Of a stretch of DNA of 32,297 bases, positions 26,428 through 27,451 are shown in pieces; position 1 is the stretch's first letter; every line of letters begins with the position of its first letter. Under the pieces are notes generated by a model that was not told the origin of the DNA, made no database searches, and saw only the letters and a list, made by a program, of their open reading frames with translations. The DNA lies in NCBI RefSeq assembly GCF_900010725.2, contig NZ_LR734880.1, positions 33,297 through 65,593 of the forward strand, given 5' to 3'. The DNA comes from Planktothrix serta PCC 8927 (lineage in GTDB: Bacteria > Cyanobacteriota > Cyanobacteriia > Cyanobacteriales > Microcoleaceae). The position numbers and the translations under genes are program-made.

Positions 26428-26461
26428 AAAAAGCCCGAAACCTGTTTGAGGTTCCGGGCTT
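26428..26461 (-). terminator. Attenuator terminator 2, upstream of aroF
   Basis: On the minus strand AAGCCCGGAACCT (26461-26449) pairs with AGGTTTCGGGCTT (26443-26431) over 13 bp, with one G-U pair and a 5-nt loop, then runs into TTTTT. It ends 40 bp before the aroF start codon, so if it forms it stops transcription before aroF. Its 5' arm CCCGGAACCT can alternatively pair with AGGTTCTGGG (26500-26491) at the end of leader peptide 2. Confidence 0.88.
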
Positions 26462-26487
26462 GGCGTTCGTGAAAACAGCAGCAAACT

Positions 26488-26553
26488 TTACCCAGAACCT
26501 ATTCGGGGCCAAAAATAAAAGCCATAAAAGTAAGATTGAGTAAAGATTGTCAT
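26488..26553 (-). CDS. Aromatic leader peptide 2 (attenuator of aroF)
   Basis: A 21-codon ORF starting MTIFTQSYFYGFYFW and ending PRIGSG. Eight of residues 4-15 are aromatic (four Phe, three Tyr, one Trp), ending in a compact YFYGFYFW run. No strong Shine-Dalgarno is visible. The final codons (ATA GGT TCT GGG) contain AGGTTCTGGG, which can pair with the 5' arm of terminator 2. A ribosome stalled on the Phe/Tyr/Trp codons would leave that segment free to form the antiterminator; a ribosome reaching the stop codon would cover it and let the terminator fold. This is the classical attenuation design. Too short for usual gene callers. Confidence 0.82.
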   Translation of the reverse strand: MTIFTQSYFYGFYFWPRIGSG

Positions 26554-26589
26554 TGCTGTTTTGCTGTAAAGCCGAGATTGTTGACCATT

Positions 26590-26618
26590 AAAAAACCGCA
26601 GCCTTTGTTTCTGCGGTT
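26590..26618 (-). terminator. Attenuator terminator 1
   Basis: On the minus strand AACCGCAG (26618-26611) pairs with CTGCGGTT (26601-26594) across a 9-nt loop and is followed by a run of T (26595-26590). The 5' arm with its flank, GTGAACCG (26621-26614), is an exact 8-nt complement of CGGTTCAC (26664-26657) inside leader peptide 1, giving an antiterminator alternative. Confidence 0.85.
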
Positions 26619-26647
26619 CACTGGGGAGTTTCCATACACCGATGGAT

Positions 26648-26707
26648 TCACTCTCTGTGAACCGTGCTACACCAAAAATAAAAGTAATAGCGATTAGAAA
26701 CTGGCAT
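26648..26707 (-). CDS. Aromatic leader peptide 1 (attenuator of aroF)
   Basis: A 19-codon ORF encoding MPVSNRYYFYFWCSTVHRE. Residues 7-12 are all aromatic (YYFYFW). It starts about 30 nt after the predicted transcription start of the promoter at 26744-26772 and precedes terminator 1. The codons ACG GTT CAC near its end contain CGGTTCAC, complementary to GTGAACCG at the base of terminator 1. The same codons can also form a local hairpin with GTGAATCC, as a pause structure would. The start lacks a clear Shine-Dalgarno, but an in-frame stop just upstream makes this ATG the only likely one. The module repeats the design of leader 2 downstream. Confidence 0.8.
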   Translation of the reverse strand: MPVSNRYYFYFWCSTVHRE

Positions 26708-26743
26708 GGGTGTTTTGATCAAACTTATATGTTCGTCTCTACG

Positions 26744-26772
26744 ACCCTAGCACAGCGATCGCCCAATGTCAA
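26744..26772 (-). promoter_or_regulatory. Promoter of the aroF leader
   Basis: On the minus strand TTGACA (26772-26767) is a perfect -35 box, followed after exactly 17 nt by TAGGGT (26749-26744) as a -10 box with 4 of 6 consensus bases. The spacer contains a HIP1 octamer. Transcription would begin near 26737, just before leader peptide 1. A MITE-like arm lies about 10 bp upstream of the -35 box. Confidence 0.7.
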
Positions 26773-26887: not shown

Positions 26888-27451
26888 ATGACATCACAAG
26901 TTTTAGTTGAAAAGAAAAAGTTAGAAAAACCGCCCTTTGAGATCCATTATTTAGGCGATCGCGCCTTAAGAGCCCAGGCTAAACGAGTTTCCCGAATTGA
27001 TGATGAAATTCGCAAACTCGTGCGGGAGATGTTACAAACCATGTATAGTGCGGATGGTATTGGTTTAGCCGCGCCCCAAGTCGCCGTTAATAAACAGGTA
27101 ATTGTCATTGACTGCGAACCCGATAACGCTGCTAACCCGCCATTAGTATTAATTAATCCCACGATTATTAAAAGCAGTGCTGAAATTTCACCCTTTCAAG
27201 AAGGCTGTTTAAGTATTCCGGGGGTGTATATGGATGTGACTCGCCCGGACGTGGTAGAAGTATCATTTAAAGATGAAAATGGCAGACCTCGAACCCTTCG
27301 CGCTACGGAATTATTAGGTCGCGCTATTCAACATGAACTAGATCATTTGAATGGGGTTTTATTTGTAGATCGAGTCGAGAATCAATTGGCATTAAATGAA
27401 GAGTTAGCCAAACATAAATTCTCACCCAAAGCTGTTAAACCCATTAAATAA
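26888..27451 (+). CDS. def: Peptide deformylase
   Basis: A metalloenzyme that removes the formyl group from the initiator methionine of new proteins in the cytoplasm. All three catalytic motifs are present: GIGLAAPQV near residue 58, EGCLSIPG near 110 (metal-binding Cys) and QHELDHLNG near 150 (two metal His and the catalytic Glu). The 187-residue length, with a basic C-terminal tail, is typical of bacterial type 1 enzymes. It is divergent from aroF with the attenuator region between. A small membrane-protein gene begins 17 bp downstream and is probably cotranscribed. Confidence 0.96.
   Translation: MTSQVLVEKKKLEKPPFEIHYLGDRALRAQAKRVSRIDDEIRKLVREMLQTMYSADGIGLAAPQVAVNKQVIVIDCEPDNAANPPLVLINPTIIKSSAEISPFQEGCLSIPGVYMDVTRPDVVEVSFKDENGRPRTLRATELLGRAIQHELDHLNGVLFVDRVENQLALNEELAKHKFSPKAVKPIK

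Follow-up and report, generated by a model that had tools for sequence, protein, structure and literature searches.

A DAHP synthase gene (aroF) of the cyanobacterium Planktothrix serta PCC 8927 is preceded by two short leader ORFs rich in codons for aromatic amino acids, each followed by an intrinsic terminator whose 5' arm has an alternative partner in the last codons of the leader. This tandem arrangement is real, is found once per genome and is conserved in relatives, and it is very probable that it acts as two ribosome-mediated transcription attenuators in series. The stretch of DNA analysed, here called the window, comprises 32,297 nt of contig NZ_LR734880.1. On its minus strand, from 26772 to 26387, a promoter-like site, leader 1, a terminator, leader 2, a second terminator and a Shine-Dalgarno sequence succeed each other before the synthase gene: the order described in an earlier note on this DNA is thus borne out by the exact positions in the sequence (Table 1).

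Table 1. Features of the aroF leader region and its surroundings; coordinates are positions in the window.
Feature	Position	Strand	Basis
Peptide deformylase, divergent neighbour	26888-27451		
Promoter-like site, TTGACA-17 nt-TAGGGT	26772-26767 and 26749-26744	-	sequence; support from relatives
Leader ORF 1, 19 codons, MPVSNRYYFYFWCSTVHRE	26707-26648	-	sequence; kept in relatives
Leader 1 control codons, YYFYFW	26689-26672	-	sequence
Module 1 antiterminator, 5' strand CGGTTCAC, inside the last leader 1 codons	26664-26657	-	8 perfect pairs
Small hairpin TCCAT..ATGGA in the antiterminator 1 loop, between leader 1 stop and terminator 1	26631-26646	-	fold
Module 1 antiterminator, 3' strand GTGAACCG, overlapping the 5' arm of terminator 1	26621-26614	-	pairs with CGGTTCAC
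Intrinsic terminator 1	26618-26590	-	sequence, alignment
Leader ORF 2, 21 codons, MTIFTQSYFYGFYFWPRIGSG	26553-26488	-	sequence; kept in relatives
Leader 2 control codons, YFYGFYFW	26532-26509	-	sequence
Module 2 antiterminator, 5' strand AGGTTCTGGGT, last leader 2 codons	26500-26490	-	alignment
Module 2 antiterminator, 3' strand GCCCGGAACCT, 5' arm of terminator 2	26459-26449	-	alignment
Intrinsic terminator 2	26461-26428	-	sequence, alignment
Shine-Dalgarno of the DAHP synthase gene, AAGGAG	26400-26395	-	sequence
DAHP synthase, aroF-like, 284 aa, catalytic core only	26387-25533	-	TIGR01361; aligns to 1rzm

The alternative helix of module 1 has the eight perfect pairs that the earlier note had counted, and is among the five shortest of the 101 compared. 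That of module 2 exists as well, but the count of 10 pairs with one G-U has to be replaced by 11 pairs with two G-U (AGGTTCTGGGT with GCCCGGAACCT). A simple consensus scan found no promoters and no terminators at the locus, which is explained by TAGGGT having three of six letters, by the 9 nt loop of terminator 1 and by the T run of terminator 2, which is short once the outer A-T pairs are counted. As regards the small hairpin in the loop of antiterminator 1, a similar one (GTTTCC..GGAAAC) was noticed by eye at the same place in many relatives. The gene after the synthase encodes a small CopZ-like protein scoring below its family cutoffs.

A single scan of the genome_contigs collection gave 80 loci, and both leaders are present in 75 of them. 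The other five are four loci with only 47-102 nt of upstream DNA (L022, L029, L040, L080) and an interrupted one (L007). In the latter (positions 1-420; Microcoleus MAG MP8IB2.171) other DNA has taken the place of the beginning of leader 2 and of the region before it; this DNA ends in GTCCTAGAAGGACGGGGCTTTAGACCC, which in our view resembles an IS200/IS605 end, while module 2 is intact from the aromatic run onward. Furthermore, an even draw of the phylum (386 genomes) provided upstream DNA for 35 full-length relatives with at least 69% identity, the window's own being excluded and eight being the same DNA as genome_contigs loci: 33 have both leaders, and the exceptions carry the second leader only (G143) or a single leader of the first type (G116). 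Four genomes were left out of these 35. The gene of G380 is broken, matching at 83% over residues 73-276 only, and no leader with five aromatics in eight codons was found within 2 kb upstream of it; G343, G016 and G001 show identities of at most 61%. In G343 (L139), from another class of the phylum and with 61% identity, one leader only, MMKRFYYFSFYPNALRC, precedes the synthase together with a terminator; inspection by eye also points to a possible antiterminator, GTTGTTA/TAACAAC.

For closer comparison 104 distinct sequences were used, the five loci lacking one or both leaders being excluded as interrupted or short of upstream DNA. Of these, 101 gave a recognisable module 1 (misses L039, L112 and L119) and likewise 101 a recognisable module 2 (misses L111, where the second ORF reads long, L114 and L119); the miss in L039 concerns the search pattern only, the leader there being MLNTNFYLYFSFRVVHRE. 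At positions W-4 to W-1 of module 1, between 96 and 99 of the 101 sequences have F or Y, and there is one Trp codon in module 1 (92/101) and there are two in module 2 (85/101). The aromatic identity is kept while the letters change (TAT:TAC 161:96, TTT:TTC 264:48), which was counted in favour of ribosome-mediated attenuation.

The possibility that such ORFs arise by coincidence was rejected on the basis of a control with 81 sequences (784,828 bases, both strands counted), in which ORFs with at least six aromatic residues in eight codons were collected. The leaders gave 137 ORFs passing this filter, and 28 other ORFs passed; a terminator lies within 130 nt of 74/75 module 1 and 74/76 module 2 leaders, as against none of the 28. 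Among those other ORFs that were listed, 20 of 25 correspond to one antisense ORF inside aroF.

Amino-acid conservation in the leaders extends beyond the aromatic run (VHRE, PRxSSG), as would be expected if the short ORFs encoded functional small peptides and the terminators merely ended short RNAs. This reading is nevertheless very improbable: the conserved tail codons pair with the terminator arm and change jointly with it (A-U to G-C, in one pair and three rows; L078), and in L033, L084 and L092 leader 1 meets an early stop directly after the aromatic run, before the tail, whose nucleotides and pairing are kept all the same. A ribosome at this early stop could still cover the tail.

The distribution of the modules was followed with two RNA models, R1 built from the module 2 alignment (A2, 40/40 representatives) and R2 from the module 1 alignment (A1, 39/40, L033 being out), which were run over 242 genomes of the cyanobacterial class with filtering that misses some weak matches. 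At an E value of 0.01, R2 matched 85 genomes and R1 76, each never more than once per genome; in 74 genomes both matched, on the same contig and strand and 16-177 nt apart. The models leave 11 genomes with module 1 alone and two with module 2 alone, a count in which at least three of the 11 (G463, G472 and G502) do possess a second leader that the model missed; in G414 the first module has diverged. Downstream DNA at 33 match places (16 + 17) shows the synthase as the next gene in 31, a remnant in one and the contig end in one. In the window, R1 scores module 1 weakly (22 bits, E 0.0094) and R2 finds module 1 only; a common origin of the two modules by duplication is possible.

Single modules of both types do occur upstream of aroF, so each can probably stand alone: the second type is alone in G143 and G540, the first in G116 and, apparently, in five members of one family, two of which were inspected by eye. 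About six changes of the tandem/single label are required on a quickly built tree of 56 proteins. This count is rough, since 21 of the 53 inner branches are open and L129 is labelled 'module 2 only' though a diverged module 1 precedes it. The existence of these single-module lineages lends some credit to the idea that one module regulates and the other is a redundant copy, adding a constant leak or a constant terminator. Elsewhere, though, both modules keep their aromatic runs and helices, with double changes in both antiterminators, and a useless module should decay, as has happened in G030 (L123), so this idea is unlikely to hold. G030 is a decaying locus: leader 1 stands there before an aroF remnant (best match to residues 46-104), and the 3' arm of the terminator is damaged.

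The promoter TTGACA-17-TAGGGT proposed in the earlier note is present as a site, and it is the relatives that give it weight. TTGACA is found within 140 nt upstream of leader 1 in 61/101 sequences, against 4.2% in mononucleotide shuffles, and a promoter-like score of at least 9/12 in 86/101, against 37% in shuffles. Between the modules, TTGACA occurs in 2/99 sequences and a promoter-like pair (at least 9 matches) in 2 of the 38 regions longer than 40 nt, against 17% in shuffles, the scoring covering these 38 of 99 sequences since the other 61 regions measure 40 nt or less. Given that TTGACA is frequent before leader 1 and rare between the modules, both modules probably lie on one transcript. 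As for translation, a Shine-Dalgarno-like tetramer (AGGA, GGAG or GAGG) precedes aroF in 97/106 sequences and leader 2 in 40/93, and leader 1 in 0/100 sequences with ATG, so that the translation of leader 1 is unsupported by that sign.

As a check, the earlier note had proposed to align the region upstream of aroF in relatives, and its expectation has held: across many cyanobacterial families the relatives retain the leader ORFs with their aromatic codons and the two alternative helices, with compensatory changes in antiterminator and terminator helices alike, the weakest being those of antiterminator 2. Antiterminator 1 is paired in 95.3% of 429 cells, 5 of its 11 pairs have changed on both sides, and 28 cells are double-changed compared with a mean of 7.5 in 500 shuffles, none of which reached as high (these covariation shuffles, 500 per helix, leave the relatedness of the sequences in place). 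When the partner is slid by 1-3 columns, 26-54% of cells are paired, with 0-7 double-changed. Antiterminator 2 is paired in 91.3% of 400 cells, with 12 double-changed cells versus 3.5 in shuffles (0/500 as high), and slid versions pair in 14-54%. Its pairs with double changes (3) and its pair types (9) are not above shuffles, and three of the six slid versions (those towards the 3' end) give 9-14 double-changed cells at 14-53% paired; for this helix, therefore, pairing is a better argument than double change. At the leader end of the helix, 11 of 40 sequences fail to form one of the two outermost pairs and 10 fail to form the other.

Regarding the terminators, the first is paired in 99.4% of 351 cells, with 4 double-changed (0.2 in shuffles), and the second in 95.0% of 360 cells, with 21 (5.0 in shuffles); in both cases 0/500 shuffles came as high. 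The own pair of tail and arm is better than a swapped one in 5888/9816 cases for module 1 (2712 ties) and in 5232/9874 for module 2 (1724 ties). Because close relatives distort this comparison, as do the cut arms of eight rows in module 2, it was set aside in favour of the column counts. Finally, a local hairpin at the end of leader 1 (TTCAC/GTGAA) is 97.9% paired with no double changes, and could act as a protector.

The spacing between control codons, helix and stop is narrow. The helix lies 6-9 nt from the Trp codon in 97/101 sequences for module 1, and the antiterminator starts 9-12 nt past the last Trp codon in 96/101 for module 2. The leader strand ends 2 nt before the stop in 57/101 (module 1) and at the first base of the stop in 87/101 (module 2), and should accordingly be covered by a ribosome that has reached the stop. 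Taken by themselves, terminators and alternative helices would suit any antitermination device, such as an RNA-binding protein or a riboswitch for aromatic amino acids in place of the ribosome. There is little to be said for such a reader, as the variation falls on synonymous positions and leaves the aromatic residues in frame, and the distance of the helix from both the last Trp codon and the stop stays within narrow limits; we consider it highly unlikely. Riboswitch and T-box were rejected as candidates, since conservation tracks codons and an Rfam 15 scan of the window, amino-acid leaders included, gave no family at the gathering score.

Reading by the ribosome was also examined in folding models. 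With a ribosome at the stop, the terminator is predicted in 100/101 sequences for module 1 and 101/101 for module 2. Partial transcripts were also folded as they would be before the 3' arm of the terminator is made, with codons W-3 to W in the A site and a footprint reaching 6-12 nt beyond. In module 1 the antiterminator forms in 99-101 of 101 such folds with the A site at W-3 to W-1, and at the Trp codon itself in 99/101 with a footprint of 8 nt and 2/101 with 10 nt; with the penultimate aromatic codon in the A site it forms in 22/101 at 10 nt, this codon often being the Trp, because a Phe or Tyr often follows it. A short footprint is thus predicted to be needed if a module 1 ribosome stalled on the Trp codon, or on the aromatic codon frequently found after it, is to permit the antiterminator. 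For module 2, with the A site anywhere from W-3 to W and a footprint of up to 12 nt, 98-99 of 99 folds contain the antiterminator; one codon past Trp it still forms in 98/99 at 10 nt and in 2/99 at 12 nt, so the Trp codon would be the exact limit only at 12 nt. In these models, then, the antiterminator strand is accessible while the ribosome waits at the control codons and is masked once it stands at the stop, with the footprint assumed deciding the case of the module 1 Trp codon.

When the complete leader is folded with a stalled ribosome, however, the minimum-energy structure still has the terminator in most sequences, 83-99 of 101 for module 1 and 63-77 of 101 for module 2 depending on stall point and footprint. 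The switch must consequently be kinetic, the antiterminator winning by being made first. Classical attenuation systems are taken to be kinetic as well.

Each module thus brings together an aromatic codon run, an intrinsic terminator between ORF and gene and a covarying, mutually exclusive antiterminator (weaker in module 2), upstream of a gene whose product makes the amino acids that would be sensed. We infer the following course of events. RNA polymerase would start upstream of module 1, and in each module a ribosome would translate the short ORF, whose Tyr, Phe and Trp codons cluster towards its end. With charged tRNAs plentiful, the ribosome would reach the stop and cover the last leader codons, the terminator hairpin would form and transcription would stop; with a charged tRNA in short supply, it would stall in the aromatic run, the last leader codons would pair with the emerging 5' arm of the terminator and polymerase would continue. 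If both modules are active in the cell, the gene would be reached only when both have been passed, and readthrough would be roughly the product of the two, the two readings combining in series.

The window synthase scores 369.4 bits with TIGR01361 (cutoff 267.75) and aligns only with residues 70-336 of 1rzm, the Thermotoga enzyme, in which feedback inhibition resides in the N-terminal domain. The same genome encodes a second DAHP synthase of 353 aa, 51% identical to the attenuated one, which aligns from its residue 1 with residues 1-334 of 1rzm. The limited alignment indicates that the attenuated enzyme is a bare core without the N-terminal domain of its paralog, and to judge from the sequences this suggests that control may have moved from protein to RNA. 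Upstream of the paralog, a single GTG ORF with four aromatic residues in eight codons is all that was listed. A scan of the viral_contigs collection with the enzyme gave six relatives with 41-45% identity. It may tentatively be proposed, as a conjecture that we hold to be rather doubtful, that the modules, to go by their numbers of Trp codons and the clearance between Trp codon and helix, are two sensors of different reach instead of equivalent copies, module 1 mainly for Phe and Tyr and module 2 for Phe, Tyr and Trp, together making a steep, low-leak gate that replaces the missing allosteric domain.

A widely conserved leader-peptide attenuator in cyanobacteria would mean that transcription and translation are closely coupled in the phylum. 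Moreover, a doubled attenuator for the same signal offers a natural test of how two serial terminators shape a response, and in strain engineering for aromatic products it gives a defined DNA segment to remove.

The design had been likened in the earlier note to the trp and phe leaders of enterobacteria. Control codons, terminator, alternative antiterminator and logic are indeed shared with the E. coli trp and pheA leaders, but the likeness stops at the position of the antiterminator strand, which in E. coli trp lies beyond the leader stop and in the cyanobacterial modules within the last leader codons; nor was a covarying protector helix found in the one module 1 hairpin tested. The same note knew of no cyanobacterial leader with two such modules, and our search of the open-licence literature in PubMed Central, most subscription papers being outside it, found none, nor any cyanobacterial leader-peptide attenuator or same-signal tandem attenuator. 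In the accessible text of Korolev et al. (2016), it is stated that there are no reliable data on attenuation in cyanobacteria. As far as searched, the tandem aromatic attenuator is new on two counts, its host and the doubling for one and the same signal.

Several systems are close to it in one respect or another, as described in those parts of the sources that were available. In the actinobacterium Corynebacterium glutamicum, the DAHP synthase gene of aroR-aroF also lies downstream of a leader peptide (there with a Phe-Tyr-Phe run) and its transcription is reported to rise under Phe limitation; the difference is that one leader peptide is described and that Tyr availability is reported to have no effect (Neshat et al. 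2014; PMC11802643, PMC7356990, PMC4046766). A uORF, a terminator stem and aroF follow each other likewise at uORFC-13-1 of Acholeplasma, where attenuation by the speed of Phe incorporation has been proposed, with one uORF holding at least one Phe codon and a distribution given there as Acholeplasma and unplaced environmental sequences only (PMC8632094). Attenuation sensing Tyr-tRNA has been suggested for aroF of E. coli as a hypothesis (Camakaris 1980) and for a cis-RNA of Shewanella aroF as a prediction, the likeness being one of description only. Finally, the mgtCBR leader of Salmonella, called a singular example in its source, likewise has two leader ORFs and two attenuators in one leader; according to the text available, these respond to two signals (ATP and proline), independently and additively, and there are no hairpins of the intrinsic-terminator kind (PMC3641672), whereas the cyanobacterial modules share one amino-acid repertoire and have an intrinsic terminator in each.
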